Below are positions 25,099 to 45,414 of a stretch of DNA of 64,000 nucleotides, piece by piece. Position numbers and translations under genes: made by a program. The notes under the pieces were generated by a model. The model saw only the letters and a list, made by a program, of their open reading frames with translations. It had not been told where the DNA came from and did no database searches. Origin of the DNA: Sinohyriopsis cumingii (Eukaryota; Mollusca; Bivalvia; Unionida; Unionidae); the NCBI GenBank assembly GCA_028554795.2, contig CM068828.1:21778436-21842435 (forward strand). The letters run 5' to 3'. Within the stretch, counting starts at the first letter, position 1. Each line of letters starts with the position of its first letter.

Positions 25099-25439
25099 AG
25101 TAGTAATAGGGGCCACTTTACGTACAATGGGAATTAGCATTACAGACCCCCCCCCCCGGGCCACTTTATGTACAATGGAAATTTAACATGGCGAAAAATC
25201 GTGTGCCACTTTACCTACAAGGGGAATTAACATGGGAATAAATCGTGGGTCACTTTTACCGACAAGGGGAATTTAACATGGGGGAATAGAGTTTGGGCTT
25301 GTCTAGGGACAAGGGGAATTGAACATGGGATTTTTTTTATATTTTTAAAAAATTTTTTTTTTTAAAAAAAAAGGGGTAGGCAATTGAAAAGTCATTCTCT
25401 TTTCGAGAAATATGGCTGGCCCTGAAAAGAGCCTTTGGG
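25099..25439 (+). repeat. left terminal inverted repeat of the Polinton
   Basis: About 341 bp, inverted copy at 45072-45414. It contains about five imperfect direct subrepeats of the form CACTTTA-TACAAGGGGAATT-AACATGG (near 25113, 25161, 25204, 25248, 25305), an 11-C run (the right copy has 15 G), an A/T-only block and, at its inner edge, a histone-type stem-loop. Mismatches between the two TIR copies are few. Confidence 0.95.
25418..25433 (-). terminator. histone-type mRNA 3' stem-loop (gene 25458-25691)
   Basis: The minus strand reads AAAGGCTCTTTTCAGGGCCAG: stem GGCTCT/AGGGCC with one U-G wobble, loop TTTC. CTCGAAAAGAG follows ~13 nt downstream as a histone-downstream-element-like purine tract. 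It begins 24 nt after the TAA stop and lies within the TIR. Confidence 0.85.
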
Positions 25440-25457
25440 TTTATGTTAATGTATCCA

Positions 25458-25691
25458 TTAACATAAAGGGCACCGCATTGGTCTTCTTCTTGTCCTTAGG
25501 CTGAGTCTCACTGTTGGCCCGTAAATCAGCACTCTTTTGAGACATCCTTGTCTTTCTACGTAGATCCTACGTATCCACAGACTGGTGTTCGTCCTGTAGA
25601 CAACGGTCCACTTGGATCGGACATACATGAGCATGTCCGTTCTAAACATCATGGAAGACACAAGGGTGGATGATTCGACTGTGGTCCACAT
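25458..25691 (-). CDS. left-end accessory protein, 77 aa, basic, histone-type mRNA
   Basis: The ORF starts at ATG 25691 and ends in TAA. A good TATA box (TATAAATA, 25743-25736) lies ~45 bp upstream, and the histone-type stem-loop follows the stop. The product is basic and Arg-rich (WIRRIYVERQGCLKRVL, LRTRRRPMRC) and matches no family I know with confidence. A stretch around IYVERQGCLKRVL is faintly like the middle of histone H4, and YRTNTSLWIRR is faintly like H3. Both are weak and I treat them as suggestion only. The gene is divergent from 25895-26455 and reads outward into the TIR. Promoter, ORF and 3' signal fit so compactly that I consider it real. Confidence 0.65.
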   Translation of the reverse strand: MWTTVESSTLVSSMMFRTDMLMYVRSKWTVVYRTNTSLWIRRIYVERQGCLKRVLIYGPTVRLSLRTRRRPMRCPLC

Positions 25692-25735
25692 CTTGAAGCG
25701 ACGAGAACAGGTGAATCAATGCAGTGAACTGCGCT

Positions 25736-25743
25736 TATTTATA
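25736..25743 (-). promoter_or_regulatory. TATA box for the 25458-25691 gene
   Basis: TATAAATA on the minus strand, 45 bp before the ATG. Confidence 0.7.
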
Positions 25744-25754
25744 GGTAGAGGTAG

Positions 25755-25850
25755 GATTGAAACGGATTGAGTTCATTCACCAATCCAAACACGCGTTACA
25801 AAATTCAGTCAGCCCGCATCCAATCCGAAGAGAGCAGTCTGTGACGTCAG
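25755..25850. promoter_or_regulatory. compact divergent promoter with CCAAT boxes and a CRE
   Basis: Between the two TATA boxes lie CCAATC at 25782 and 25820, the inverted form GGATTG at 25755 and 25764, and a perfect CRE palindrome TGACGTCA at 25842-25849. CCAAT boxes with TATA boxes in a ~110-bp divergent spacer are the layout of replication-dependent histone gene pairs. Function is inferred. Confidence 0.6.
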
Positions 25851-25856
25851 TTGGTC

Positions 25857-25862
25857 TATATA
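25857..25862 (+). promoter_or_regulatory. TATA box for the 25895-26455 gene
   Basis: TCTATATAG context, 38 bp before the ATG at 25895. Confidence 0.65.
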
Positions 25863-25894
25863 GATTCGCTAGCGCTTGTGTGCAGTCAATCTAT

Positions 25895-26455
25895 ATGACA
25901 GTGATTCAACATGACGGAAACTCAGAAAACGATCCATTGGGGTGCACCAACAGGGGAGACTGCCCAAGGGAACCCGGACTTACTTTCAGAAGAGGTGAAT
26001 TTGTTCCGGAACCTTCGTTACCTTCTTCATTACCGCAAGTGGAGAATTTTAGACAGAGACAGAAAGAAGAATTGGAGAAATTTATACAACGACAAAAGGA
26101 AGCGGAACAAGCTTTTCTCCTACAGCAACAGCAGCAAGAAGAAGAGGTAAGAAAAAAACAACAGCAACAACAGCAAGAAGAAGTAGCAGCAAAGAAACAA
26201 GAAGGTGAAAATCAAACGGTCACGGTACTGTTGGACATTTTAGCGGAGTTAAGAAGTCTGAAACAAATGTATCAGACTTCTTTATTACGACCGAAGAGAA
26301 TACGACCTTCCCGAGCTAAACACGTCAACCCTGTGACTAAGCCTACCGTACCACCCTTAGTGATTTCAACCCAATCATCATCATCAACATTACGCAGTCC
26401 AGAAGTAGGCCTTGGCCGTGGCAAAGGCTTAAGGCAGTTAAAGTTGATTAGTTAA
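25895..26455 (+). CDS. left-end accessory protein, Q/E-rich coiled coil
   Basis: I use ATG 25895, the first ATG after the TATA box. The longer open frame upstream to 25757 opens with TTG and lies across the promoter. The product is 186 aa. The N-terminal ~50 residues carry GCTNRGDCPREPG. A long Glu/Gln coiled coil follows (QRQKEELEKFIQRQKEAEQA, then QQQQQQ tracts), then LDILAELRSLKQMYQTS and a basic Pro/Ser-rich tail. No known domain. CAG/CAA repeats explain the Q tracts. A histone-type stem-loop follows the stop by 26 nt. The overlapping +2-frame ORF at 25911-26150 is a shadow. Confidence 0.7.
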   Translation: MTVIQHDGNSENDPLGCTNRGDCPREPGLTFRRGEFVPEPSLPSSLPQVENFRQRQKEELEKFIQRQKEAEQAFLLQQQQQEEEVRKKQQQQQQEEVAAKKQEGENQTVTVLLDILAELRSLKQMYQTSLLRPKRIRPSRAKHVNPVTKPTVPPLVISTQSSSSTLRSPEVGLGRGKGLRQLKLIS

Positions 26456-26481
26456 ACTTACCCCCTACACCAAAATAAAAA

Positions 26482-26497
26482 GGCCCTTTTCAGGGCC
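26482..26497 (+). terminator. histone-type mRNA 3' stem-loop (gene 25895-26455)
   Basis: AAAAAGGCCCTTTTCAGGGC closing with CACCCAC: six perfect stem pairs, TTTC loop, ACCCA flank as in metazoan histone mRNAs. CGAAAAGAAAT begins 13 nt after the stem. Confidence 0.9.
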
Positions 26498-26540
26498 ACC
26501 CACATTTCTCGAAAAGAAATACAATTTCAATTTGCCAATA

Positions 26541-26744
26541 ACTCAAAAAAACCCCACCCATTTTACCCTTATAGTACGTGTCTTTGTATGAGTGCGTGAG
26601 TGTAGCTTCTTATTTTAAAATCAAAACTCAAAGACACTTACCTTGTATCATTAATTTATTCTTTTCTCCATTTTTACAATCCAATTCACAATTCACAACA
26701 GAACACTTAAATTAAAAGTTCATTGACTTCTTCTTTCTCCTTGT
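26541..26744. other. spacer between convergent genes
   Basis: AT-rich. It holds the poly(A) signal of the minus-strand zinc-knuckle gene; no ORF of note. Confidence 0.6.
26655..26660 (-). terminator. poly(A) signal AATAAA for the zinc-knuckle gene
   Basis: AATAAA on the minus strand, about 85 nt past the stop at 26745. In contrast to the end genes, this gene has no stem-loop. Confidence 0.55.
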
Positions 26745-27240
26745 TTAGTCTCTCTGTTTTTTGAATTTCTTCACCGTCACACTCTTTTCCTCTTCTTCTT
26801 CCTCCTCGCTTTCTTCCCTTCTTCTTTTCTTCTCCTGTTTCTTTTTCTTCACCTGTCTTCTTTCTTCCTCAGAAGAATTCCTCTCTTCCTCTGAAGAATC
26901 CCTCTCTTCCTCTGAAGAATCCCTCTCTTCTTCTGAAGAATTCCTCTTTTCTTCTGATTCCTCTTGTTTCTTTTTTGGGCAATCTGGAGACCAATGTCCT
27001 TTTTCTTTACAATAATAACAGGTATCTTTACTTTTGTCTTTTTTAGCCCCTGTTATTTTTTCTTTTTTGACGGTCTGGACACTCTGAAGACTAATGCCCT
27101 TTCTTCTTACAGATATAGCAAGTATCTTGACTTTTATCTCGAAAGGAAGGAGAGTAGTCCGTGGGCTGGTCTGAAGAGAATTTTCTAATGACCCCTCGCA
27201 AAGCTCTGACGAAACGTTCGATTTGGTTAGTCCCTTCCAT
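26745..27240 (-). pseudogene. zinc-knuckle (CCHC) protein gene, broken
   Basis: I take ATG 27240 as the start (MEGTNQIERFVRALRGVIRK), ~55 bp past a strong TATA box. Two CCHC zinc knuckles (C-x2-C-x4-H-x4-C) are visible. The first, CYICKKKGH, is cut by a TAG at 27093-27091 at the position where the second knuckle has Trp. The second, CYYCKEKGHWSPDC, is intact but in a different frame, with the shift near two T6 runs at 27056-27068. The tail is a Ser/Glu array (repeats of SSEEERD) and a Lys/Arg-rich end. CCHC knuckles bind single-stranded nucleic acid. The element-specific role is unknown. Frames that begin at GTG upstream are artefacts. Confidence 0.7.
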
Positions 27241-27294
27241 CGTTGTGCTCGGCTTGAGAGTGAAATGAATAGTGAAAGGACAAGACACACACCC

Positions 27295-27304
27295 TTTTAT
27301 ATAC
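27295..27304 (-). promoter_or_regulatory. TATA box for the zinc-knuckle gene
   Basis: GTATATAAAAG on the minus strand, ~55 bp before ATG 27240, back to back with the polymerase promoter. Confidence 0.7.
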
Positions 27305-27319
27305 GCTGGTCTGCTATGA

Positions 27320-27328
27320 CTATAAATT
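27320..27328 (+). promoter_or_regulatory. TATA box for the polymerase gene
   Basis: CTATAAATT, 55 bp upstream of ATG 27375. Confidence 0.65.
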
Positions 27329-27374
27329 AGTTTATGGTGTTTAAACTTGAGTCATTTGACGTTTTTCACTCAAG

Positions 27375-30300
27375 ATGAAACGATCCTATTCATTTGAGAA
27401 GAAAGAAGAAGAAGAAAGTAAGAGGCAGAAACGTGATCTATCGCCTCGTACCAGAGCTGAAATCTTGGCACAAGTTCATGCCAGTGATTTTGAAGAGGAC
27501 ATGAGTGAACCAGAATCTGAAACCTCTAAACCAAGTTCACCACCCTTAGTCAACCCTGAAAAGTACTATTCCATTCGAGAGACGGAAAAGCGCTCCTCTA
27601 GAAAATTTAGAACCACGGCTTACAAATACACGGTGAAGTTTAAAGATTTCAAGGCTGAAGTGCCGTTAGAGAAAGCAGAAGTGTTTATCACTGGGGTGTG
27701 GGATTCTTTGCTCACTGCACTCAAGCGACAATGTCAACCCAAAGAAGACGATCGCTTGAGACTTTCCATACAACACGACGGTTTGAAATCCCCTGTTTGG
27801 ATCGAGTTTAGCACCCCTGCAGAATTGACTGCTTCCAAAGTCATGGACAAGATTCAACACGTACAACAATCTAATGATCAGTTTGACATCACCGATGGTA
27901 AAGCCACACTGGACATGACCCACGTCTCTCCTCCTCAAGGGACTGGACGCAAAAAGATGTTATTGGTGGACGACCTTCGCAACACCAAAAAGAGTCTCGT
28001 CCGAATTAACAACCCTCATGACCAGATGTGTTTAGCCTATGCCATCGTGGTGGGACGAACCTATACCAACAAGAACGACACGGTAGAATGGAAAAGAACC
28101 TGGAACACTATTCAACGTTCCGATCGAGCCAAACAACGAAACGAAGCAGAACTCCTGTTGCAACAAGCTGGCCTGTCCAAAGACACACCCTGTGGCATTC
28201 CTGAGATGCAAAAATTGCAAGATGTCCTAGCTCCACGATACACCTTGAAAGTGCACCCTCAAGAAATGCGCGGACCTCTGTTGTTTCGAGGCCAAGATTT
28301 TAAGGACGGAAAATACATTAATGTTTATTATCACGATGACCATTTCGATACCATTACCACCATCACCGGATTCCTGGTATACAGATATTACTGTGAGAAA
28401 TGTGATTATGGTTATAACAATCGAGAGCAACACAAGCATTGTGGAATGAAATGCCCAGGATGTTTGGCCTCTTCACCCTGTCTAAGCGAAGAACCAGTGC
28501 CTTGTTCAACTTGTCTGCGTACGTTTGTCAGCCCTACCTGTTACCAACAACATTTGAAGACGCAAGGTTCACAGAAGAAATGTGCTTGTCAACTCCTGAG
28601 ATTGTGCCCTACCTGTGGACAAGGCCTACGTACCAATAATGCAAAGGCACACGTATGTTCAGGAAAGAAAAAATGTCACATTTGTCACCACATCGTGGAC
28701 TTGGAACACGAATGCTACGTGCAAAAATACCAACCCCCACCAGAGAAAGAGGACGGTCACAAGAAGAAAGGCATTTTCATCTTTTTCGATTTCGAATGCA
28801 TGCAAGAGACCGCCATTCACATTCCTAATTTCTGCGTGGCTCATCGAGCGTGCGAGAAGTGCATTCAAGAACCTATCTTCAGTCATTGCCCTCACTGCAG
28901 CAAGATTCCTGGAGGGCGTGAAAAAATCTTTCGGGGACCGAACACGTTAGCCGATTTTGCCCAATGGGTCTTAGACCCCATCGACAAGACGTGGAGCCAA
29001 GAGGACATCGAACGTTACGGAGATTGTCATCGTCATGCCACGGTGATGGCTCACAATTTCTCCGGATACGATGGACAGTTTCTTTTGAGGTACTATACGG
29101 AACAAGGCACCGAGCGTCCTAAAGTGACTTTGAACGGAGCCAAAATCATTTTCATGCAAGTGGGACAAGTACAGTTTAAAGATTCGATGAGCTATTTGGC
29201 CATGCCTTTGAGTCGAATGCCTAAAACGTTTGGAATGACAGAAATGGCTAAAGGGTACTTTCCACACTTTTTCAATACGGAAGCCAATCAACACGCTGTT
29301 CTACCCCATTTACCTGAGGCTCACTATTACGACCCCGACAACATGCGTACCGAACAACGAGAAGCTTTCTACGCTTGGTACCAGGCTCACGCCTCGGACC
29401 CTTTCGACTTTCAGGAAGAAATGCTAAAGTATTGTCGTTCCGACGTGGACATTTTACGGCGTTGCTGTGGAAAATTTCGAGAACTGTTCATGGAACACGG
29501 AGGGGTCGATCCTTTGAAAGAAGCTTGCACCATTGCCAAAGCGTGTTCCTTAGTGTATCGACAACGATTCATGCCTGAAAACACCGTGGCTGTCATCAGT
29601 CCGCAAACGACCCACTATGTCAAACGTCAATACTCGGTCAAAGCCCTACGCTGGTTACATTACTTGTGTGACAAGGAAGACAAGTGGATTCAGCATGCCC
29701 GCAACGGAGGGGGTGAAAAGACCATCGGAACGTATTCGGTCGATGGCTGGGACTTAGAAAACCCCAAGATCGTGTACGAGTTTAACGGTTGCTTATTTCA
29801 CGGATGTCCCGTCTGTTACCCTGACCGTAGCACTAAAAATCAGTTTTTGCAACGAACCATGGAAGACTTGTACCAGGACACATGTCAGCGGCGCTTAAAG
29901 TTGGAACAGCAAGGATACCAAGTGGTGGAAATGTGGGAACACGAGTACGATCACCGTCTGAAAACCGATCCCGAGTTTAAACGTCTCGTGGAAAGTTACC
30001 AGTTCATGGACCCGCTGAACCCGAGCGATAGTTTGTACGGAGGAAGGACCAATGCCACCTGTTTGCTGTACCAAGCCGACGAAGAGAAAGGAGAAGAAAT
30101 CAAATACTTGGACGTGTGTTCACTGTATCCCTACGTGTGCAAATATTGTCGCTTTCCTGTAGGGCACCCACAATTGCTGACGGAACACATCGACCTGAAA
30201 AACATTCGACAATACGAAGGCTTGATCAAGTGTAAAGTTTTGCCTCCCACGGACTTGTACCATCCCGTCTTACCTCACCATTGTCAAGGCAAACTGATGT

Positions 30301-31415
30301 TTCCATTGTGCCGTACTTGTGCCGAAACGTGCAACCAAGACCAACCTTGCCATCACACCCAGGAAGAACGTGCCTTGACGGGAACCTGGGTCAGCGTAGA
30401 ATTGTTCAAAGCTCTGGACATGGGATACCAACTGTTAGAAGTGTACGAAATTTGCCACTTTCCCAAGACACAACAATACCACAAGGGTGATCCCAGTCAG
30501 AAAGGCATTTTCGCCGACTACGTGGATGCCTTTTTGAAACTGAAGCAAGAAGCCAGCGGCTATCCGTCCTGGTGTCACACTCCCGAAGACCAAATACAAT
30601 TCAAAGAGAAATACTATGAACAAGAAGGCATCACTTTAGACCACATCGAGAAAAACGAAGGCAGGCGATCATTTGCCAAAGTGATGTTAAATTGCTTGTG
30701 GGGTAAAATGGCACAACGACCGTGTTTACCCAAGACGGAATATTTGACAGAACCTTCCCGCTACTTCCAGATGATTCACGACAAAACCAAATACATGAAA
30801 CACGTGGACGTCGTTCGCGAGGATTTGATCTTGGTCAATTACGAAGAAGATCTGGACTTTGTACAAGACGACCCTTTTGGAAATATCATCACTGCGGCTT
30901 ACGTGACAGCTCATGCTCGCTTAAAATTGTACGAAGCTTTAGAACTGTTAGGGGAACGCGTCCTGTACTTTGACACGGACAGTTGCATTTACATCCATCA
31001 CCCGAGTCAACAGCACCCTGACATCGAAGGAAACCGTTTAGGAGCCTGGACAGACGAGCAGCCCGACGACAAGATTCTAAGTTTCGTCAGTGGCGGTCCC
31101 AAAAATTACGGCTACGAAAACCGGGACAAACAAGGAGAAATGCACACGACGTGCAAAGTGAAAGGACTGACTCCGAATTATCGTACCAGTCGTGTGGTCA
31201 ACTTTGGGGTATTGAAAGAAGCCTTGCAATCCGGAGAGGATGGAAACTTTAAAGTGACCACCTATCAACCGAACAAGATTGTACGTTTACCCACTCACCA
31301 CATCGTTAGTCGGCCCTTGGAAAAAGTCTGTCAAATCGTGTACCAGAAGCGAGTGCGACTTCCCAATCATTTCACCTTACCGTATGGACACATTGGTATA
31401 AAACATTGGTTGTAA
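27375..31415 (+). CDS. polB: Polinton family B DNA polymerase (protein-primed type)
   Basis: 1346 aa, one open frame from ATG 27375. A charged N-terminal region (1-70) is followed by a conserved Polinton N-domain and a Cys/His-rich zinc-binding region (~338-455, many CxxC pairs). The 3'-5' exonuclease follows: Exo I FFDFE with D472/E474, Exo II HNFSGYD with D566, Exo III YCRSDVD with D690. The polymerase motifs are A DVCSLYP (D913), B K-V-M-L-N-C-L-W-G (K1102, N1106, G1110) and C YFDTDS (D1200, D1202). All catalytic residues are present, so it should be active. It replicates the linear element, probably with a terminal protein as primer. Its last codons contain the TATA box of the next gene. 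Opposite-strand ORFs are shadows. Confidence 0.97.
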   Translation: MKRSYSFEKKEEEESKRQKRDLSPRTRAEILAQVHASDFEEDMSEPESETSKPSSPPLVNPEKYYSIRETEKRSSRKFRTTAYKYTVKFKDFKAEVPLEKAEVFITGVWDSLLTALKRQCQPKEDDRLRLSIQHDGLKSPVWIEFSTPAELTASKVMDKIQHVQQSNDQFDITDGKATLDMTHVSPPQGTGRKKMLLVDDLRNTKKSLVRINNPHDQMCLAYAIVVGRTYTNKNDTVEWKRTWNTIQRSDRAKQRNEAELLLQQAGLSKDTPCGIPEMQKLQDVLAPRYTLKVHPQEMRGPLLFRGQDFKDGKYINVYYHDDHFDTITTITGFLVYRYYCEKCDYGYNNREQHKHCGMKCPGCLASSPCLSEEPVPCSTCLRTFVSPTCYQQHLKTQGSQKKCACQLLRLCPTCGQGLRTNNAKAHVCSGKKKCHICHHIVDLEHECYVQKYQPPPEKEDGHKKKGIFIFFDFECMQETAIHIPNFCVAHRACEKCIQEPIFSHCPHCSKIPGGREKIFRGPNTLADFAQWVLDPIDKTWSQEDIERYGDCHRHATVMAHNFSGYDGQFLLRYYTEQGTERPKVTLNGAKIIFMQVGQVQFKDSMSYLAMPLSRMPKTFGMTEMAKGYFPHFFNTEANQHAVLPHLPEAHYYDPDNMRTEQREAFYAWYQAHASDPFDFQEEMLKYCRSDVDILRRCCGKFRELFMEHGGVDPLKEACTIAKACSLVYRQRFMPENTVAVISPQTTHYVKRQYSVKALRWLHYLCDKEDKWIQHARNGGGEKTIGTYSVDGWDLENPKIVYEFNGCLFHGCPVCYPDRSTKNQFLQRTMEDLYQDTCQRRLKLEQQGYQVVEMWEHEYDHRLKTDPEFKRLVESYQFMDPLNPSDSLYGGRTNATCLLYQADEEKGEEIKYLDVCSLYPYVCKYCRFPVGHPQLLTEHIDLKNIRQYEGLIKCKVLPPTDLYHPVLPHHCQGKLMFPLCRTCAETCNQDQPCHHTQEERALTGTWVSVELFKALDMGYQLLEVYEICHFPKTQQYHKGDPSQKGIFADYVDAFLKLKQEASGYPSWCHTPEDQIQFKEKYYEQEGITLDHIEKNEGRRSFAKVMLNCLWGKMAQRPCLPKTEYLTEPSRYFQMIHDKTKYMKHVDVVREDLILVNYEEDLDFVQDDPFGNIITAAYVTAHARLKLYEALELLGERVLYFDTDSCIYIHHPSQQHPDIEGNRLGAWTDEQPDDKILSFVSGGPKNYGYENRDKQGEMHTTCKVKGLTPNYRTSRVVNFGVLKEALQSGEDGNFKVTTYQPNKIVRLPTHHIVSRPLEKVCQIVYQKRVRLPNHFTLPYGHIGIKHWL
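31397..31403 (+). promoter_or_regulatory. TATA box inside the end of polB, for the first BIR gene
   Basis: TATAAAA overlaps the last polB codons, 42 bp before ATG 31439. Confidence 0.6.
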
Positions 31416-31438
31416 GAGGATAGTCACACGCTAGAAGG

Positions 31439-31897
31439 ATGACTTCGCCACAGCAAGAATCGAGTGAGAAACCCGATGAGAACTCCAAGTTCAAACCCTA
31501 CCATTTTCCAGTCTTCTTACCTGACTATTGTGATTGTGCCCGTCGATTGGACACGTTTCAGAAATGGCCTACGGATAGGGAAGGATTACCTTCTTCGCAT
31601 GTTTTAGCTAGAACAGGATATGTCTACTTGGGACCTGAGTCAGGATTGGGATACGAGGTACAGTGTTTCGCTTGCGGACTGAAGTTACGAATGGATCTAT
31701 GTATCTATAAAGATTCAGCTATTCTGGAACATACTCGATGGTCTCCGCACTGCCCTTACCTTTCTATGGCCTTTCCGCCCATCACACTACGGTACAATGT
31801 TGACGGTACCTTAGAGACGGTACCTTCCAGAACAAGACCTAAAAAACATAAAAAAGGAAAGATGTACAAGCTGGAGACTGCATTGCGACTAGTATAA
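31439..31897 (+). CDS. BIR-domain (IAP-like) protein 1
   Basis: 152 aa. A single BIR domain spans about residues 24-108: RRLDTFQKWP at the start, GYVYLG, then CFACG with C76 and C79, H98 and C105. The Cys-Cys-to-His spacing is 18 rather than the canonical 16 residues, and the usual Trp in this loop is missing. It may fold less typically than the second BIR protein. No RING or CARD, so it resembles small viral IAPs rather than cellular E3-type IAPs. BIR proteins block caspases or bind their activators, so an anti-apoptotic role is inferred. The tail is Lys-rich. It shares FPV-L--YC-----RL--F with its neighbour, so the two are paralogues. Confidence 0.88.
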   Translation: MTSPQQESSEKPDENSKFKPYHFPVFLPDYCDCARRLDTFQKWPTDREGLPSSHVLARTGYVYLGPESGLGYEVQCFACGLKLRMDLCIYKDSAILEHTRWSPHCPYLSMAFPPITLRYNVDGTLETVPSRTRPKKHKKGKMYKLETALRLV

Positions 31898-31956: not shown

Positions 31957-32595
31957 ATGAATACTTTCAGAGAAACACAGAACAAGTTGTTTAGAAAGGC
32001 ACAATTCAAGTGTGAGGCTTCGGAAGTGGAATGCGATTGTGAGCCTTGCGATGGGTACGATGCTGTACGTTGTGACCTTAGCGATGTCGTAAAGCATCAT
32101 GGGAACTTTGTTCTCACTACCCCTATCATGGAAAGTGATGCTGTGCGTGTCAAACCTGAGGGATGCGAAAGTGATGCCGCTCGTCCTCTTGGACATTTCA
32201 CTGGGTTTCGTTTTAAAGGGGAATGTTCACCTTCACGTCTACCCCCTTACGGATGTCATCCAGCCCTGAGCAAACTCCTGTTCATGTCACTCAACCCTCA
32301 TCGAAACGAACCTGTGAAAGACGAATATTCGTTTCCTGTGCGTTTGTCGGAATACTGCGACTTTGAAAATCGTCTTCAATCGTTCAAAGGAAAATGGCCT
32401 AAGTATCTGGGAGGACCGACCCCCGAAGAATTAGCCAGAGCCGGATTTTTCTACTTGGGCGAAGGAGATAAAGTCAAGTGCTTCAGTTGCGGTGTGTCAC
32501 TTCACCACTGGGAACCGCAAGATTCGGCCTACGTAGAACATGCTCGATGGTCACCGAATTGTCATTACTTACCCTTAGTGGGACCGAGACATTGA
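31957..32595 (+). CDS. BIR-domain (IAP-like) protein 2
   Basis: 212 aa. The C-terminal BIR (~126-206) is canonical: RLQSFKGKWP, AGFFYLG, CFSCG, W185, then EHARWSPNC. The zinc ligands C175, C178, H195 and C202 have the standard CX2CX16HX6C spacing. The first ~120 residues are unusual. They are Cys-rich (CEASEVECDCEPC) and contain repeated Asp-Ala-Val/Ala phrases (YDAVRC, SDAVRV, SDAAR), with no domain I recognise. No RING. The probable role is blocking host cell death, inferred from family. An opposite-strand ORF is a shadow. Confidence 0.92.
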   Translation: MNTFRETQNKLFRKAQFKCEASEVECDCEPCDGYDAVRCDLSDVVKHHGNFVLTTPIMESDAVRVKPEGCESDAARPLGHFTGFRFKGECSPSRLPPYGCHPALSKLLFMSLNPHRNEPVKDEYSFPVRLSEYCDFENRLQSFKGKWPKYLGGPTPEELARAGFFYLGEGDKVKCFSCGVSLHHWEPQDSAYVEHARWSPNCHYLPLVGPRH

Positions 32596-32617: not shown

Positions 32618-33079
32618 ATGGATACTTTACAAGAGAACATTCGTGCTTTGCCTGTGGAGTTGAGAGAACGCATTTACCGAGACCTGGTCAAAATACAAGT
32701 GAAACGTAAAGAACAATTGCATCCGTTACGTCACCGGTGTTTGAACCACTGGTACCTGAAGGCTATACAAGGACTGATTCAATTGAAAGTGTTCCATTGG
32801 ACAGACATTGATCAACGATCCCCTGGTTTTAAAAAGGATTGGTTTGTTATGGACGATTCTATCTACTACTGCATCATTGTAAACTTACTGCATCGAATTC
32901 CAGAGGAAGAGTTAACGAATTACCAACATCTTGAACACAATGTCAGCTTAGTGAAAGAGGAAACTTCTGAACGAATTGTAATGTGTAGATTAGTGACTAA
33001 ACGATTTAAATTCGACACTGAAGTAAAACCATGTTTGTGCAAAGAGTACATTTCTTGTGTCAGACCAAAGAGGATTTAG
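32618..33079 (+). CDS. F-box-like tandem family, member A (full length)
   Basis: 153 aa from ATG 32618. It opens MDTLQENIRALPVELRERIY, then RDLVKIQVKRK. LP-EL-E-I---L resembles the start of an F-box, which would bind SKP1 in ubiquitin ligases. That is an inference from a short motif, and the rest has no recognised repeat domain. A later region (LLHRIPEEELTNYQHLEH ... RIVMCRLVTKRF) reappears in degraded form at 33496-33714. It belongs to the accessory block after the BIR genes. No clear TATA of its own, so it may be read through from the BIR gene. Confidence 0.6.
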   Translation: MDTLQENIRALPVELRERIYRDLVKIQVKRKEQLHPLRHRCLNHWYLKAIQGLIQLKVFHWTDIDQRSPGFKKDWFVMDDSIYYCIIVNLLHRIPEEELTNYQHLEHNVSLVKEETSERIVMCRLVTKRFKFDTEVKPCLCKEYISCVRPKRI

Positions 33080-33091
33080 TATGACCTATTC

Positions 33092-33364
33092 ATGGATACT
33101 TTGCTAGAGAACATTCGTGCTTTGCCTGTGGAGTTGAGAGAACGCATTTACCGAGAACTGATCAAAATACAAGTGAAACGCAAACTCAAAGTTATTCAAC
33201 CGTTTTTAAATTATGCTCTGTTCCAAAGTACAAGAAGACTGATTATGAGTGGATATTATATCAGGCACAAAGTTAAACGAGGCTATTGGCCACCACCCAA
33301 GGATTCCAAAAACAGTGTATATACTTATGGATACTTTACAAGAGAACATTTTGGGCTTGCATGA
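33092..33364 (+). CDS. F-box-like tandem family, member B (short)
   Basis: 90 aa from ATG 33092, only 12 bp after member A. The first 30 residues are almost identical to A (LPVELRERIYRELIKIQVKR). It then diverges (QSTRRLIMSGYYIRHKVKRG), and its last codons run in another frame over the start of member C. It looks like a tandem duplicate cut short by the next copy. Confidence 0.5.
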   Translation: MDTLLENIRALPVELRERIYRELIKIQVKRKLKVIQPFLNYALFQSTRRLIMSGYYIRHKVKRGYWPPPKDSKNSVYTYGYFTREHFGLA

Positions 33365-33714
33365 GGAGTTGAGAGAAAGGATTTACCGAGAACTGGTCAA
33401 AATACAAGTGAAACGTAAAGAACAATTGCATCCGTTACGTCACCAGATCTTTAACAAAGATCTTTAAACAAAGACACTATAAAATCAAGTTGCCATGCCA
33501 CGGATTATGTCACATATTATTGAACAGATGGAAGGAACTCAATGACCATATTCAAACCGTGGATCATTACCATCGATTATTACAAGAACTGTATCCATAC
33601 AATTTGGGACGACAAGTGGTGTGTGTCTTAGTGACTTGTTTTCTGGGATTTCGTTTACCAGCCGATTCTTTGTGGACTCTTTACGATCAGTACTTACCAC
33701 CTCAATGGCCTTAA
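33327..33714 (+). pseudogene. F-box-like tandem family, member C (broken)
   Basis: It starts at ATG 33327 inside the end of member B (LQENILGLHEELRERIYREL) and stops at 33467. The matching C-terminal region (LLNRWKELNDHIQTVDHYH, RQVVCVLVT) continues in another frame at 33496-33714 without its own ATG. The break is near the repeated GATCTTTAACAAAGATCTTT at 33448-33467. A TATAAAA at 33478 may be fortuitous. Confidence 0.5.
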
Positions 33715-37215: not shown

Positions 37216-38325
37216 ATGGAAAAAGTCTTAGCCAGCATTTACTACGGTCCCTCGCATCCTGCAGGTTACGCAGGAGTTCAAAAATTGTATCGTGCTGCCA
37301 AAACTCGACTGAAAAGTCTCCGTTTACCTCAAGTGCAACGATGGTTACAAGAACAAGCTACCTACACTTTACACAAACCCATTCGACGCAAGTTTGCCAG
37401 AAGTCGCACCCGAGTGGAAGGCATCGATCATCAATGGCAAGCCGATTTAGCCGATGTCTCTCATTTGGCCAGCTACAATCGTGGCTACAAATATTTGTTT
37501 TGTGTCATCGACGTCTTTTCCAAATTTGCCTGGGTCGTACCCTTGACTTCCAAATCGAGCAGCGAGTTAGTGCGAGCCATGCAACGAGTGTTGAAACAAA
37601 GCAGTCGTCACCCTCTTCGATGGCAAACGGACAAAGGCACCGAATTTCTGAACCAAGCTTTCCAAAAAGAATTAAAGAAACGTGACATTCATTTTTTTAC
37701 CACCGAGAATCCCGAAACCAAAGCCAGCATCGTGGAACGTTTTCAACGCACTTTGAAAGAACGCATGTGGAAATATTGTACGCATTACCACACTCTGAAA
37801 TACATCGACATCTTACCGCACCTGGTGCAAGCGTACAACCAATCTTACCATCGAAGCATTGGACGTGCCCCGCAAGACGTGACTCCCGACAACGAAGTGT
37901 TGGTGTTTGAGCGTCTGTTTGGTACGTCCCCGACGAGGGCTGTCTCCAAGAAAAGTGGAGAGTTGGCCGTAGGAGATTGGGTGCGCATTGGCAAAACCAA
38001 ACGCACTTTCGACAAAGGTTACTTACCTACCTGGACGACCGAATTGTTTCGCGTCACTGGACGAGTGCATGGCCGTCATCCTGCCGTCTATAAATTGGAA
38101 GACATGAACGGAGAAGTGCTCAAAGGAACGTTTTATTTGCCCGAGTTACAACGTGTCACCAAAAAAGAAGACGACGTGTACGACATCGAAAGCATTCTCG
38201 AACGCAGAACCCGTAAAGTGGGCAAACGACGTGTCAATGAAGTCAAAGTACGTTGGAAAGGATATCCACCCAGTTTTGATTCTTGGATCGACGCTTCGCA
38301 AGTCATCGACTATAAAAAGAAGTGA
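37216..38325 (+). CDS. int: retroviral-type DDE integrase with C-terminal chromodomain
   Basis: 369 aa from ATG 37216; an in-frame ATG at 37174 overlaps the previous gene. The N-terminal helical part includes GPSHPAGYAGVQKLYRAAK. The rve core has catalytic D77 (WQADLAD), D139 (QTDKGTEF) and E174 (ASIVERFQ), with 34 residues between the second D and E. It is followed by YNQSYHRSIGRAP, typical of this family. The C-terminus is a chromodomain (YDIESILERR, VRWKGYPPSFDSWID). The enzyme inserts the element and makes the 6-bp duplication seen at its ends. The chromodomain may guide it to methylated histones. No residue is missing, so it is probably active. Confidence 0.96.
   Translation: MEKVLASIYYGPSHPAGYAGVQKLYRAAKTRLKSLRLPQVQRWLQEQATYTLHKPIRRKFARSRTRVEGIDHQWQADLADVSHLASYNRGYKYLFCVIDVFSKFAWVVPLTSKSSSELVRAMQRVLKQSSRHPLRWQTDKGTEFLNQAFQKELKKRDIHFFTTENPETKASIVERFQRTLKERMWKYCTHYHTLKYIDILPHLVQAYNQSYHRSIGRAPQDVTPDNEVLVFERLFGTSPTRAVSKKSGELAVGDWVRIGKTKRTFDKGYLPTWTTELFRVTGRVHGRHPAVYKLEDMNGEVLKGTFYLPELQRVTKKEDDVYDIESILERRTRKVGKRRVNEVKVRWKGYPPSFDSWIDASQVIDYKKK
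38311..38318 (+). promoter_or_regulatory. TATA-like box at the end of the integrase gene
   Basis: TATAAAAA overlaps the last integrase codons. It is only 20 bp from the next ATG (38331), so it may serve the following cluster with a very short leader, or it may be chance. Confidence 0.35.
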
Positions 38326-39673: not shown

Positions 39674-39676
39674 GTC

Positions 39677-40093: not shown

Positions 40094-40107
40094 GAAAGAA
40101 CAAAAAA

Positions 40108-41423
40108 ATGATGCACCGAGAGTCTTGCGCTTGTTCCAAGTCGGAACTGGATCTGTTTGCCATGCCTCCCACCATGATGACCATGCAAGAATCCCAGTGG
40201 GTAGAATTTCACCCCGTCTCCTCTTTGACGGATTCCGCTCCCATCGAGTTTGAAATCAAAGGACAGCCCGAAGATTACATCGATCTGAATAGCAGTTACT
40301 TGTACCTGAAAGTCAAAATTCTAGATAAGACTGGAGGTCCTATAGACGATGAAGCAGTAGCTCCCGTCAACAATTTCATGCATTCCTTGTTCAGTGGAGT
40401 GGACTTGTACTTGAATAACAAACTGGTCAGTAGCAGCATGGATACTTACCCTTATCGTGCCTACCTGGAAAATCTCTTGACGTACGGAATAGATGCCAAG
40501 AACACTCATCTCAATGCCTGTGTGGTATGGGAAGCTGACGAACCTACCAAGTTTGAAATATTGGAAACTGATGAAAAGAAAGACAACAATGATGGATTTG
40601 TAGAACGAAGAAAGAGAATCACGGGAGTCGACACAAGTTTAGAACTGATGGATCGTTTGCATTTGGACATGTGGTTGCAAGAAAAGTATTTGCTGAACGG
40701 GGTGGATGTCCGCCTGAGACTGAATCGTAGCAGTACCGCTTTCCATTTATTGGCTGATAGTGACGGTTACAAAACCAAAATCCTAGAAGCCAGACTCTAC
40801 GTACGCCGTGTGGAAGTGTTACCTAAAGTGGGAAACGACATCAATCAGACGTTGAGCAGAACGACCGCCAAGTATCCCATACGACGCGTGGAAATGAAAA
40901 CCTTCACCATTCCCAAGGGACAGCGATCCATGATCGAAGATCATCTGTTCCAAGGACAGTTACCAAAACGTTTGACCGTTGGTATCGTCGAGAATACAGC
41001 CTTCAACGGAGCTGCCGAAAAAAAAATCCTTTCTACTTTCAACACTTTGGCGTGTCCAAAATCGAAGTCAGTCGCGATGGCAAAACCTTGTGTACCCGAC
41101 CTTTCGAACCTGACTTTACCAAGAAGAATTACTTGAGATCGTACTTGTCCCTGTACGAAGCCACCGGACAGTTAGGAACCAATACAAGTCACGGTATTAC
41201 GTACGAGGATTATGCAGGAGGCTATGCTTTGTGGGCTTTTGATTTCACTCCAGACCAAGGCAGCGACAAGGGACATTTCCACCCTATAAAATCCGGCCAA
41301 ATTCGTGTGGAAATTCAGTTTAAAGACCGAGACCCTGATGAAACGGTGAACGTCATCCTGTATGCAGAATTCGATAATACCATAGAAATCAACAGTTTGA
41401 GAGAAGTCATCCTAGATTACTAG
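40108..41423 (+). CDS. major capsid protein (double jelly-roll), frame break in A9 run
   Basis: It starts at ATG 40108 (the open frame upstream to 40090 has only TTG). The family signatures are PIEFEIKGQPEDYIDL, VDLYLNNKLVSSS, TYPYRAYLENLLTYG and GVDVRLRLNRS. The frame runs on as non-family sequence to 41136, while the expected C-terminal part (YLSLYEATGQ, GGYALWAFDFTPD, NVILYAEFDNTIEIN) continues in the -1 frame to 41423. The change point is the run of nine A at 41018-41026. It could be an assembly indel, a real mutation, or recoding by slippage. The major capsid protein builds the icosahedral shell. Confidence 0.88.
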
Positions 41424-41428
41424 AAGCC

Positions 41429-41782
41429 ATGGAAGACTGTTATCCCTCTTTACCTAGTGGAGAAACTTTGGACATGAAATGTGAGGAGACCGTGGAAAAA
41501 GAAGAAGTGATCATGATGAAGTCAAGATGGCCAGAACAAGAAGCCCATTTAGTCTCCTGTTTTGCCAAACACTTGGTCGAAAAAATGACGGAATTGATCA
41601 AGAAAAATTGCTATGGATGTCAAAACGATCATCCCAGTCAAATTCAACACGATAAATGCCTGATGTTGAGTCAAGAAGAAAAATTGGACGAGTATCTGGA
41701 CGAAGCTTGGAGTCTCATCTCGGACGAAGACGTGTTGCACCAGTGGTATAAAGACTTGCGTGAACTTCTTGTCCACCATTAA
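41429..41782 (+). CDS. conserved Polinton Cys/His protein
   Basis: 117 aa from ATG 41429, 5 bp after the major capsid stop. An acidic N-terminus is followed by a helical part and CYGCQNDHPSQIQHDKCLM. C61, C64, H68 or H74 and C77 could bind a zinc. I associate the C-GC---HPSQ--H--C signature with an uncharacterised protein found next to the major capsid gene in many Polintons. Role unknown. Confidence 0.6.
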   Translation: MEDCYPSLPSGETLDMKCEETVEKEEVIMMKSRWPEQEAHLVSCFAKHLVEKMTELIKKNCYGCQNDHPSQIQHDKCLMLSQEEKLDEYLDEAWSLISDEDVLHQWYKDLRELLVHH

Positions 41783-41929
41783 CCACTCAAGAGATTGATC
41801 GTATCGAAGCTCTCCTGAATCAGAGTGAGGAGACGAAACGAAGAAACGGTTACTTGTCAGACATTTTCAAGCAAAAAGTCAGGATAGAATTGACGACTTA
41901 TTATTACCTGTGAAGAAAAAAACACACAA
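41783..41929. other. leader region before the protease gene
   Basis: 147 bp without an ORF or a clear TATA box. Confidence 0.4.
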
Positions 41930-42478
41930 ATGGATACCTGGGAACTTTATTACCTTTTGAACCACAGTTCGTATACGGCTTCTTGGAATCCTGTCGTCTG
42001 TGCTAAAGATGAACTCCCTCATCGCAAACCTAAAGACCATCAAGCTTACGTGATCAACACGGACGACAGTCATCTCCCAGGAACCCACTGGGTAGCCGTT
42101 TACTTTCCTCAAGAAGGATGTGTGGAATATTTCGATTCGTACGGATTACCCCCCTTGGAAGACGATATCATTGACTTTATGAGAAGAAATGCTCAGACCA
42201 CCCGATTCAATAATGTGAAATTACAAGGCACAGATTCCTTGGTGTGTGGACAGTACTGTGTGTATTTTCTGCATCATCGCAGCCTGGGCTATTCCTTAGA
42301 ACATTTAGTGACTCATTTTGATCCTCGTTCTTTTTCAAGAAATGATATGAAAGTAGATCGATGGTTTTGTGACCATTATGCTTATCTTTTGTCTCAAGCT
42401 AGGAAACGTAGTGTCCATCAATGGCCTAATGATTTCCAACAGTGGAAATCACAACGTTGTCAGCCCTGTTTAAAGTAG
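41930..42478 (+). CDS. adenain-like cysteine protease
   Basis: 182 aa from ATG 41930. The catalytic set of the C5-type (adenain/Ulp) fold is present: H53 (GTHWVAVYF), D69 (EYFDSYG), Q99 (KLQGTD) and C106 (LVCGQYC). The Q-to-C distance of 7 is as expected. The size is close to the family norm. It would process capsid and core proteins during maturation. Last gene of the rightward core block. An AATAAA follows at 42602. Confidence 0.93.
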   Translation: MDTWELYYLLNHSSYTASWNPVVCAKDELPHRKPKDHQAYVINTDDSHLPGTHWVAVYFPQEGCVEYFDSYGLPPLEDDIIDFMRRNAQTTRFNNVKLQGTDSLVCGQYCVYFLHHRSLGYSLEHLVTHFDPRSFSRNDMKVDRWFCDHYAYLLSQARKRSVHQWPNDFQQWKSQRCQPCLK

Positions 42479-42736
42479 ATTGTAAATTGAGAAAAATGTT
42501 AGTCATTTTTTTTTTTTGAAGAAAAAAATGTTCGATGTTATCATGTTGGATTATTGTTAAAAATGTTAGAAATGTTGTTGTTTAGTGTTAAGTGATTTTT
42601 GAATAAAAAATGTTGTGTTTTTGAAAAAAAATGCCTTTGTCTTTTGTTTAGCTATAAGAATGTTGGATTGATGCTCTTTAATTTCTTACTATCCCTCTCA
42701 TGACACTCACTGAACGTTGCGACTCGAAAACCGTGT
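42479..42736. other. AT-rich spacer between core and right-end genes
   Basis: Homopolymer-rich, with repeated AAAATGTT words. It holds the core block's poly(A) signal. No ORF. Confidence 0.6.
42602..42607 (+). terminator. poly(A) signal AATAAA after the protease gene
   Basis: GAATAAAAAATGTTGTGTTT context, 124 nt after the stop. The core unit ends with a conventional poly(A) signal, unlike the end genes. Confidence 0.6.
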
Positions 42737-42763
42737 GGGGGATGTTTTCCTTCACGTCCGCGC
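42737..42763 (+). promoter_or_regulatory. right-end promoter motif, copy 1
   Basis: GATGTTTTCC followed by TTCACGTCCGCGC, preceded by GGG. It is 67 bp before ATG 42830, with CTTTAAGAACC as a weak TATA-like element in between. Other copies are at 43626, 44301 and 44371. Confidence 0.7.
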
Positions 42764-42829
42764 TTTGACTTTAAGAACCGGGGTTGTTTCCAGTCTAACC
42801 ATCCATTGTCGACTCATCCTCCTACGAAG

Positions 42830-43195
42830 ATGTGCTCCAAACTAGCTAAGCTCAACGAAGCCTACGTGAATTTGCATAGGGTCAGACACAGTCTGATACC
42901 GAAGCCAGAAGAAATAGAGAATGTGAGAATGTTAAAAGTCACTGAAGACCTGATAGAAGAGCTCTTCAGAGAAGAAATGAACAGGGAGAAAGAAGAATGG
43001 TCAGAGAAGTACAGACTTCAGAGACAGCAGCAACAGCAGCAACAACAACAACAACAGCAGCAGCAGCAACCTGAAGCTGACAGAGGCTTTGTCGATTGTC
43101 GTATCGACACCAAAGAGTTCTTCTTCTCTTTCCGAAGAAGCAGACCTATCGCCAGAAAGTCTATCCTCAGAGGACATCGCATTCTTAGAAACTAA
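42830..43195 (+). CDS. right-end accessory protein 1 (coiled coil, poly-Q)
   Basis: 121 aa from ATG 42830 (the open frame to 42806 begins with TTG). KLNEAYVNLHRVRHSLIPKP, then LIEELFREEMNREKEEW, a run of ~16 Gln coded by CAG/CAA, and a basic Phe/Arg end (EFFFSFRRSRPIARKSILRG). No known domain. It has the same upstream motif and the same 3' stem-loop module as its two downstream neighbours, and loosely the same build (short helix, then charged coil). Confidence 0.65.
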   Translation: MCSKLAKLNEAYVNLHRVRHSLIPKPEEIENVRMLKVTEDLIEELFREEMNREKEEWSEKYRLQRQQQQQQQQQQQQQQQPEADRGFVDCRIDTKEFFFSFRRSRPIARKSILRGHRILRN

Positions 43196-43227
43196 AAAAA
43201 GATTGCCATAGCAAACAAAAAAACAAA

Positions 43228-43330
43228 AAAAAAACAGCCCTTTTCAGGGCTACCCCAATACTCTAGAAAAGAAATAACTATCCATTTGCCAATGTGTGTA
43301 GGTAGAGTAGTGTGAATATAAACACTAACT
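43228..43330 (+). repeat. direct repeat of the 3' module (partner 44052-44163)
   Basis: Both copies share stem-loop, CTAGAAAAGAAATAAC, TTTGCCAATGTGTGTAGGTA, GAGTAGTGTGAATATAAACA and CTAACTCTTTTTT. They arose by duplication of a gene with its control elements. Confidence 0.85.
43236..43251 (+). terminator. histone-type 3' stem-loop, right-end gene 1
   Basis: AGCCCTTTTCAGGGCT: six pairs with a TTTC loop. The basal pair is A-T instead of G-C, changed on both sides. ACCCC flank. TAGAAAAGAAAT begins ~13 nt after the stem. Confidence 0.85.
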
Positions 43331-43625
43331 CTTTTTTAAAAAAATGTGAGTGTATGTGTTTGTGTATAAGATTGTGTGTTTGTAAGTGCTCACGTACGTT
43401 GGTGTGGATAGTAGATTAAGATGATTTTTTTGGTGTTTGAGGTGTGGGAGAGTAGATTCGGGGTTTGATTGCTTTGCGTATGTGGATAGTCTATTGAAGT
43501 GGTTAATGAAAAAATTTTTGGGAATAGTAATGGGTAGCATAAAAAAGTGAGTGAGTGTTTCTTTTAGGTCCGCGCGTTGTTTTTTTTTTGGTCATGATCT
43601 AGGTAAGATCAATTTTATGTTTTTA
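43331..43625. other. spacer with a degenerate upstream motif
   Basis: T/G-rich. AGGTCCGCGCGTTG at 43566 and the following GGTCATGATCTAGGTAAGAT block match the region at 44319-44350, so this is a truncated extra copy of the promoter module. Confidence 0.55.
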
Positions 43626-43651
43626 GGGGGATGTTTTCCATCACGTCCGCG
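43626..43651 (+). promoter_or_regulatory. right-end promoter motif, copy 2
   Basis: GATGTTTTCC then ATCACGTCCGCGC, 71 bp before ATG 43722. Confidence 0.7.
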
Positions 43652-43721
43652 CTTTCAGTCTAAATTGAAACTCGCTCGGCAGTCTAGCTACCCTTGTTGA
43701 TCGATCAACACCACCAGAAGA

Positions 43722-44030
43722 ATGAACACCAGAATTGTGAAACTGCTAGAACTCCAGATGCACTTGGAATATGCCAGGCGCATAGTAAATGAACTATCCG
43801 CGGAAGCCATAGTAGAAAAAGCAAGAATAAAGAAGGAAGAGGAGGAGAGAAGAGAGAGGGAAGAGGAGGAAAAGAAAATAGGAGAGAGGATGACTTACAA
43901 GATACCAGAGACAGAGGATTGGGGTGCTGAAGCCAATCATCCCGCCTCTGCACTCCCAAGAAGAAAGGTGAAAGGAGACTGGGGAAGAAGATGCGTGTGT
44001 GGCGCCAGGCCAGGAAGGTGCCATCATTAG
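43722..44030 (+). CDS. right-end accessory protein 2 (charged helix)
   Basis: 102 aa from ATG 43722. LLELQMHLEYARRIVNELSA, then a nearly uninterrupted Glu/Arg/Lys helix (EEEERREREEEEKK) and a Cys/Arg-rich end (GRRCVCGARPGRC). The opposite-strand open frames are low-complexity shadows. No domain recognised. Upstream motif and 3' stem-loop place it in the same set as its neighbours. Confidence 0.6.
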   Translation: MNTRIVKLLELQMHLEYARRIVNELSAEAIVEKARIKKEEEERREREEEEKKIGERMTYKIPETEDWGAEANHPASALPRRKVKGDWGRRCVCGARPGRCHH

Positions 44031-44051
44031 ATAGGTGCATCTGGAGTTAAA

Positions 44052-44163
44052 AAAACCAACAGCCCTTTTCAGGGCTACCCAATACCCTAGAAAAGAAATA
44101 ACAATCAATTTGCCAATGTGTGTAGGTAGAGTAGTGTGAATATAAACACTAACTCTTTTTTCA
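44052..44163 (+). repeat. direct repeat of the 3' module (partner 43228-43330)
   Basis: See 43228-43330. Confidence 0.85.
44061..44076 (+). terminator. histone-type 3' stem-loop, right-end gene 2
   Basis: AGCCCTTTTCAGGGCT with ACCC flank and CTAGAAAAGAAAT downstream, 30 nt after the stop. Confidence 0.85.
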
Positions 44164-44300
44164 TAGTGTGAGTGTATGTGTGTTTGTGTTTGTAACTACT
44201 CACGTAAGTTTGTGTGAATAGTAGATTATGGGTTTGTTTATTGTTTCTTAGCGTATGTGAAGAGTATAGTTTGGGTTTTATTATAAGAAATGAGAAAGTA

Positions 44301-44326
44301 GGGGATGTTTTCCTTCACGTCCGCGC
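44301..44326 (+). promoter_or_regulatory. right-end promoter motif, copy 3
   Basis: GATGTTTTCC then TTCACGTCCGCGC, first of two copies in tandem 70 bp apart. Confidence 0.7.
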
Positions 44327-44370
44327 GTTGTTTGGTCATGATCTAGCTAAGATCAATTTTATGTTTTTAG

Positions 44371-44396
44371 GGGGATGTTTTCCTTCACGTCCGCGC
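44371..44396 (+). promoter_or_regulatory. right-end promoter motif, copy 4
   Basis: Same motif, 63 bp before ATG 44459, followed by CGTATAAGAACC, a TATA-like element. Confidence 0.7.
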
Positions 44397-44458
44397 TTTT
44401 CGTATAAGAACCCACAGTATTCGTCGTTCAAACCATTCTACGGAATAACAGATACAAG

Positions 44459-45040
44459 ATGGAAGTGTCGGCGTTGTTTAATGACTTAAGAAATGTTTAC
44501 TTTTGGATGATGGATGGAGAGTATACTATTGAAAGGATAGAAAGAGAATGGAGGTTGAGAAAAAGTCTTGACTATGTCAATGAACTACAATTAGCGAGGA
44601 AGATGATAGAGGAGATGATAGAGGAAGAAGTTAAGAGATTGAGAGGATTGATTCAACCAGAGTATGTAAGAGTAGGGACTATAAAAGAGTCTATGGACAA
44701 GGTAAAAGCAGTGAGATGCTATTTAGAAGAGCTAGAGAAACGGTCAGAGTGGAAGTTCGTGAAAAGGGGCATTGAACAACTAAAGAAAGCGGAAGAAAAG
44801 ATGAAAAAGATAATAGAGGAAGAAGTGCAGAAAATTAAGGACAGGTGGGCAAAAGATAGAAAAGAACAAGAGAATAGAAAGAAAAAAGAAGAATATGAGA
44901 GACTGAACAATAACTGGATAAAAATCCAAGAGAAGTTCCGAGCCATGGGACACCCGGACTGGATGCCGGAAACAGAAAAGAAGAAGAAGAAAGGAATGAT
45001 GGAAAAAAGAAGAGGATGGTGGAAGAAGTTAAGGAGCTAG
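44459..45040 (+). CDS. right-end accessory protein 3 (long coiled coil)
   Basis: 193 aa from ATG 44459. It is almost entirely alpha-helical and charged. Two related blocks appear: YVNELQLARKMIEEMIEEEV and IEQLKKAEEKMKKIIEEEVQ, suggesting internal duplication. It ends with a Trp/Lys-rich part (PDWMPETEKKKKK, RGWWKKLRS). No domain recognised. The 3' signal is the stem-loop in the right TIR, 37 nt after the stop, so this gene reads outward like the one at the left end. Confidence 0.7.
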   Translation: MEVSALFNDLRNVYFWMMDGEYTIERIEREWRLRKSLDYVNELQLARKMIEEMIEEEVKRLRGLIQPEYVRVGTIKESMDKVKAVRCYLEELEKRSEWKFVKRGIEQLKKAEEKMKKIIEEEVQKIKDRWAKDRKEQENRKKKEEYERLNNNWIKIQEKFRAMGHPDWMPETEKKKKKGMMEKRRGWWKKLRS

Positions 45041-45069
45041 AAGAAGAAGAAGAAGAAGAAGAAGAAGAA
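45041..45069. repeat. (GAA)n microsatellite before the right TIR
   Basis: AGAAGAAGAAGAAG run after the stop codon. Confidence 0.85.
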
Positions 45070-45071
45070 AT

Positions 45072-45414
45072 CCCAAAGGCCCTTTTCAGGGCCACGCATA
45101 TTTCTCGAAAAGAGAATGACTTTTCAATTGCCTACCCCTTTTGTTAAAAAAAATTTAAAAAAAAAATAAATAAAAAAATCCCATGTTCAATTCCCCTTGT
45201 CCCTAGACAAGCCCAAACTCTATTCCCCGATGTTAAATTCCCCTTGTCGGTAAAAGTGACCCACGATTTATTCCCATGTTAATTCCCCTTGTAGGTAAAG
45301 TGGCACACGATTTTTCGCCATGTTAAATTTCCATTGTACGTAAAGTGGCCCGGGGGGGGGGGGGGGTCTGTAATGCTAATTCCCATTGTACGTAAAGTGG
45401 CCCCAATTACTACC
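45072..45414 (-). repeat. right terminal inverted repeat of the Polinton
   Basis: Inverted match to 25099-25439, ~343 bp. It has a 15-G run where the left copy has 11 C, and a different A/T-block length; otherwise nearly identical. Confidence 0.95.
45078..45093 (+). terminator. histone-type 3' stem-loop, right-end gene 3 (in TIR)
   Basis: AAAGGCCCTTTTCAGGGCCAC: six perfect pairs, TTTC loop. CTCGAAAAGAGAA begins 11 nt after the stem. Mirror image of 25418-25433. Confidence 0.9.

Follow-up and report, generated by a model that had tools for sequence, protein, structure and literature searches.

In a 64,000-nucleotide (nt) stretch of the genome of the bivalve Sinohyriopsis cumingii (GCA_028554795.2, contig CM068828.1, positions 21,778,436 to 21,842,435; hereafter the window, with position 1 as its first letter), we identified a Polinton whose small terminal genes are followed by the stem-loop and downstream purine tract of replication-dependent histone mRNAs, three of these genes also being preceded by promoter boxes of the host histone genes (Table 1). 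These signals indicate that the terminal small genes of this Polinton family are probably expressed as histone mimics, which would form an S-phase-coupled set through the stem-loop-binding protein SLBP and the U7 small nuclear ribonucleoprotein (snRNP). With boxes on three genes and 3' signals on five, it is also likely that a virus-like transposon family keeps a gene set of its own under the host histone programme.

When the whole window was scanned against every Rfam model, Histone3 (RF00032; curated cut-off, or gathering score, 34 bits) was placed at precisely the five sites that a sequence-only reading had proposed as histone-type stem-loops, here S1 to S5, and nowhere else at E <= 1. All five were detected at E < 1e-3, and two scored above the cut-off. 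When the 16-nt stem-loop sequence was searched with up to three mismatches, five matches were found in the window, solely at the same sites, and none of 100 shuffles reached this number (mean 0.59, largest 4). The same reading had placed the sites just past stop codons and ahead of a purine tract, and both features were borne out: the stem starts 24-40 nt past the stop codon at all five sites, and a GAAAAG tract starts 14 nt past the stem at four of them and 15 nt past it at 43236. S1 and S5 lie within the terminal inverted repeats as mirror copies and are therefore not independent sites; S2, S3 and S4 lie outside the repeats. The presence of two of the five hairpins within inverted repeats would suit a role as DNA or genome-RNA structures, involved in replication, packaging or a transcription block at the ends, rather than as mRNA signals. 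This explanation is nevertheless very improbable, given that the other three hairpins each stand directly behind a stop codon and on the strand that encodes the gene, and that the sequence, including the unpaired tract, matches host histone 3' ends.

To place these sites against the histone genes of the host, we searched the 2.9 Gb genome from which the window derives. Histone3 gave 75 scored matches from 589,472 candidates; the 36 inspected (the 30 best and the 6 weakest) were all ends of copies of the Polinton, and none had a histone reading frame within the stretches examined. An H4 probe gave 114 matches, many of them spaced ~8.3 kb apart, and one of the tandem host histone units behind these matches (L084) was found to comprise H4, H2B, H2A, H1 and H3, each followed by a stem-loop (Histone3 scores of 35.0-39.4 bits) and then by GAAAAG, which starts at +14 in H4, H2B and H3 and at +15 in H2A and H1. 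The sharing of stem-loop and GAAAAG at equal distance by the host histone genes supports, at the level of sequence, the earlier claim that the element carries the full histone 3' processing signal. The element sites resemble the replication-dependent histone mRNA 3' end in stem-loop sequence, loop, second-position G, stop-codon proximity and GAAAAG spacing, but differ in sitting on non-histone genes of a mobile element and, for S3 and S4, in having an A-U outer pair and a C before the stem.

Direct comparison of the element with the histone unit by BLAST, with the low-complexity filter on, returned 25 matches at E <= 0.01, all of them at the five stem-loops and five promoter boxes. The 43.7 kb of flanking sequence gave no match to the unit, and 30 dinucleotide shuffles gave none at E <= 1e-3. 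Without the filter, a coding part of the gene at 42830 that is rich in repeats also matched the unit (E 0.001 and weaker); this match, gone once the filter is applied, was discounted as a simple repeat. S2 resembles the 3' end of host H2A over 69 nt (77% identity), a likeness that points to its capture from one of the host's histone genes.

The sequence-only reading had predicted stem-loops at equivalent positions in related elements, and these were present at all 17 covered sites in six copies from the same genome, with all six stem pairs retained in each. The six copies were picked from 111 integrase matches before their ends were seen. A further set of copies, L001-L030, had been picked by stem-loop score, and their selection sites were therefore excluded, so that only their other sites were counted together with those of the six; L032 and L033, which overlap L010 and L011, were left out of the counts. 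Among the 47 distinct sites obtained in this way (50 alignment rows, including 3 duplicates), the six standard pairs are kept in 41, pair 2 is G-C in all 47, and the TTTC loop is present in 43. At the outer pair, 21 sites have G-C and 22 have A-U, so that both sides of the pair change between site classes. GAAAAG occurs within 36 nt in 45 of the 47 sites, starting at +13 to +15 (at +14 in 42). Over the 50 rows the 16 nt of the stem-loop match the window at 779 of 800 positions, against 2877 of 3387 from -100 to -26 and 4241 of 4853 from +40 to +150. Within the six integrase-chosen copies, stem-loops are identical to the window at 253 of 256 positions, the 15 nt directly upstream being 53-75% identical, and Histone3 detects 16 of 17 sites at E <= 0.05 (5 above the cut-off, 11 below). 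Two further copies, from a second integrase search, both retain S5 intact. Choosing L001-L030 by stem-loop score is the one feature that would favour an account by chance or selection bias, which we regard as already refuted: the otherwise-picked sites and copies agree, and the shuffles yield nothing.

The same searches gave a view of the family itself. The integrase at 37216-38325 had 111 scored matches from 45,356 candidates, 97-100% identical and with no internal stop in any of the 111. By its integrase the Polinton family is thus very large and apparently recent, yet the end gene at 44459 has only 74% DNA identity across the six copies. A search of the same genome with the amphioxus integrase P0082 gave 106 scored matches from 42,764 candidates, 53-56% identical. 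These gave more copies of the family rather than a separate lineage: at least one place is shared with the first list, and both fetched ends belong to the same family. For relatives outside this genome, 12 stretches among viral_contigs matched a pattern in a search by PolB, none of which was confirmed, and a search by exact stem-loop found none; an integrase alignment gave one distant locus (L031, 26% identity), which had no Histone3 match.

Upstream of the right-end genes, we identified a 24-nt box motif four times in the window, against 0 expected, ahead of the genes at 42830, 43722 and 44459, together with one box of a second type. Boxes of the first type stand in the H2B and H1 promoters of the host unit and, inverted, ahead of H2A, the second type stands ahead of H4, and H3 has no promoter box; the host H2B, H1, H2A and H4 boxes contain GTCCGC. 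The possibility that the box is an element-specific repeat was dropped, as the host histone unit carries it too. The likeness to host histone promoters extends to stretches identical over 24/24 and 21/21 nt and to similar distances to the ATG (86-164 nt from box start in the element; 80-107 nt for host H4, H2B and H1), whereas the element boxes differ in preceding genes without a Pfam family, and the host set differs in the lack of a box at H3. Three box stretches are 95-97% identical across the six integrase-chosen copies. No single box type is common to the whole five-gene set, boxes being found at three of the five genes; their position before these three provides a second line of support for S-phase expression. 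Together with the retention of the 3' signals in copies picked otherwise, the boxes make it probable, as the sequence-only reading had held, that the end genes form an S-phase set that borrows host histone mRNA processing. The histone transcription factor HINFP, with its motif around ACGTCCGC, is a candidate for a link to the box; a paper search gave nothing useful on this point.

We also examined selection on the adjoining genes through the ratio of nonsynonymous to synonymous substitution rates (dN/dS). This is below 1 in every computable row for the 77-amino-acid (aa) gene (0.06-0.23 over 21 rows, including two re-fetched copies; dS 0.17-2.1, and at least 0.9 in 13 rows), for 43722 (0.11-0.51 in the 13 of 14 rows that could be computed; dS at least 0.9 in 4 of 13) and for 44459 (0.11-0.32 in the 8 of 10 rows that could be computed; dS at least 0.9 in 5 of 8). 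The 77-aa gene, whose protein has no Pfam match, is hence under strong purifying selection with synonymous sites often near saturation, while dS in the adjoining gene at 25895 is only 0.02-0.41. These values bear on the proposal that histone gene ends were once captured and now persist passively in the element, serving no purpose today. The 69-nt likeness of S2 to the H2A 3' end is consistent with such a capture, but stem-loops identical at 779 of 800 positions between flanks at 85-87%, several adjoining genes near synonymous saturation (25895, before S2, excepted) and three box stretches conserved in six copies render the absence of a present role extremely improbable.

The proposed expression of the end genes as histone mimics would follow the known pathway. 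In animals, according to PMC7026596, base pairing between the U7 snRNP and the downstream element leads to cleavage of histone pre-mRNA 4-5 nt past the stem-loop, without addition of poly(A); SLBP requires a guanine as the second base of the stem (PMC10388802), and this guanine is invariant in the 47 element sites. Host SLBP would bind the element stem-loop, and the U7 snRNP would pair with the GAAAAG tract, for which (CT)AGAAAAGA is a candidate pairing stretch, and cut ~5 nt past the stem. The resulting mRNAs would lack poly(A) and accumulate in S phase, while histone-gene transcription factors on the boxes may switch on the three right-end genes simultaneously. Through SLBP/U7 processing and these factors, the end genes would be expressed in S phase and so be tied to the time when the cell has nucleotides and the enzymes of replication at hand.

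Several observations weigh against this proposal. S1, S3 and S4 score under the Rfam cut-off, S3 and S4 having an A-U outer pair and a C directly before the stem, and the S4 site of one copy (L069) is undetected by Histone3. The copies are related to each other, so their sites are not independent, and the gene at 25895 beside S2 has low dS (dN/dS 0.20-0.97), which makes conservation at S2 less telling. Stem-loops are also not the only conserved bins, as the coding end of 42830 is 96-100% identical and positions +60 to +74 past S3 and S4 are 97% identical. Furthermore, the left-end pair (25458-25691 and 25895-26455) has no match to a histone promoter box. Lastly, an AATAAA lies ~65 nt past S3 in 5 of 5 covered copies and is followed by TG-rich DNA, resembling a poly(A) site, for which reason polyadenylation may occur, if only as a backup route.

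The last of these points raises the alternative that the genes are normally polyadenylated downstream, with the stem-loop lying within the 3' untranslated region and modulating only stability or translation. The block past S3 reads AAAATAAAC in 5 of 5 covered copies, whereas the window and most S4 copies have ATATAAAC; the window copy past S3 has ATATAAA in place of AATAAA. Past S4 a hexamer precedes S5 in three of six covered copies, at the same near position as past S3 in L068 and much further on in L067 and L065, and in the window AATAAA stands directly before S2 and also after S5, within the repeat. Against this, the window contains no AATAAA or ATTAAA from S3 or S4 to the next gene, the other three covered S4 copies lack a hexamer before S5, and GAAAAG with its spacing, a feature of U7 cleavage, is kept in 45 of 47 sites. 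Host H4 and H2B too have AATAAA-type hexamers within 300 nt downstream, H2A, H1 and H3 having none there. We therefore consider routine polyadenylation rather unlikely. The conserved block past S3 and S4 (43285-43331 and 44109-44155) has the form TTTGCCAATGTGTGTAGGTAGAGTAGTGTGAA(A/T)ATAAACACTAACTC and is a possible backup poly(A) site. The sequence-only reading had further assigned AATAAA signals to the core genes of the element. Judged on the full hexamer list for the element, counting hexamers closely following core or minus-strand frames, this held for a few only (plus strand: 34226, 37209 and 42602; minus strand: 26660), whereas behind most of the remaining core frames no hexamer lies close.

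Histone mRNAs are called the sole known metazoan mRNAs of this type in PMC6303110 and PMC10388802. Titles and abstracts of the open-licence literature searched contained no case of histone stem-loops or SLBP in Polintons, transposons or viruses, and the searched text of a paper on gene transfer by animal viruses mentions viral histone-like proteins and lacks the term 'stem-loop'. If the end genes are indeed expressed as histone mimics, they would provide the first non-histone animal mRNAs of the histone class, and a mobile element bearing histone signals at both the promoter and the 3' end would stand as a natural exception to a histone-only class. Element gene expression would then be tied to S phase in the host, with the histone locus body as a possible site, showing how an integrated virus-like element times its genes to host DNA replication. 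The element signals would additionally allow the importance of individual bases in the histone signals to be tested by evolution a second, independent time.

Table 1. Features of the Polinton and its histone-type signals, in window coordinates.
Feature	Position	Strand	Details
Polinton	25099..45414	.	Inverted repeats, gene content; 20.3 kb
6-bp target duplication	25093-25098 and 45415-45420		TACAGT; read by eye on both sides of the Polinton
Left terminal inverted repeat	25099..25442		Contains S1
Right terminal inverted repeat	45069..45414		Contains S5
Stem-loop S1	25418..25433	-	Histone3 at 25393-25438, 27.9 bits, E 9.2e-4
Stem-loop S2	26482..26497	+	Histone3 at 26477-26521, 41.2 bits, E 9.6e-9
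Stem-loop S3	43236..43251	+	Histone3 at 43231-43275, 29.3 bits; outer pair A-U
Stem-loop S4	44061..44076	+	Histone3 at 44056-44101, 29.9 bits
Stem-loop S5	45078..45093	+	Histone3 at 45073-45118, 37.1 bits
GAAAAG tract (histone downstream element) of S1	25399..25404	-	Starts at +14
GAAAAG tract of S2	26511..26516	+	Starts at +14
GAAAAG tract of S3	43266..43271	+	Starts at +15
GAAAAG tract of S4	44090..44095	+	Starts at +14
GAAAAG tract of S5	45107..45112	+	Starts at +14
H2B/H1-type histone promoter box	42740..42763	+	90 nt before ATG of gene 42830
H4-type histone promoter box	43558..43578	+	21/21 identical to host H4 promoter
H2B/H1-type promoter box	43629..43652	+	43630-43653 identical to host H2B box (24/24)
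H2B/H1-type promoter box	44303..44326	+	
H2B/H1-type promoter box	44373..44396	+	TATAAGA-like sequence directly downstream
77-aa gene	25458..25691	-	Ends 24 nt before S1; open reading frame, dN/dS
Accessory gene	25895..26455	+	Ends 26 nt before S2; open reading frame
121-aa accessory gene	42830..43195	+	Open reading frame; followed by S3
102-aa accessory gene	43722..44030	+	Followed by S4; dN/dS
193-aa accessory gene	44459..45040	+	Followed by S5; dN/dS; 4 homologues at 45-55%

The element is a Polinton by its inverted repeats, 6-bp duplication, PolB, integrase, ATPase and a weak protease match. Pfam searches identified PolB (E 2.4e-41), an RVE integrase with chromodomain (1.8e-13) and an A32-like ATPase (7.4e-8), all above cut-off, as well as two BIR proteins; the match to an adenovirus-type protease is weak (E 0.007) and below the Pfam cut-off. 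An open reading frame at 40108-41136 has no Pfam match and lies where a double jelly-roll major capsid protein would be expected. PolB, integrase with chromodomain, ATPase, inverted repeats, 6-bp duplication and the weak protease match are shared with Polinton/Maverick elements and adintoviruses, from which this element differs in its histone-type expression signals, none being reported for them in the open-licence titles and abstracts searched.

With regard to the accessory genes, no Pfam family was found at the curated cut-off for the right-end genes behind promoter boxes, and BLASTP gave no convincing match that would indicate paralogy among the three right-end proteins. The window copy of the gene at 25895-26455 is frame-shifted in its 5' part relative to other copies, of which intact ones exist, and 16 of 19 database homologues cover the 5' part and read on in one frame. 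The predicted structure of one homologue, a single long helix of low confidence, was not used for function. Elsewhere in the window, Rfam matches to mir-297/mir-3149 at 55000-56600 fall below cut-off and within TATG-type simple repeats. Inside the Polinton, an interrupted zinc-knuckle-like frame (by eye) on the minus strand at 26620-27240 has its own AATAAA at 26660, a tandem duplication at 32618-33455 repeats a 129-nt stretch at 32618, 33092 and 33327, and the two BIR (inhibitor-of-apoptosis) domain genes are adjacent, at 31439-31897 and 31957-32595.

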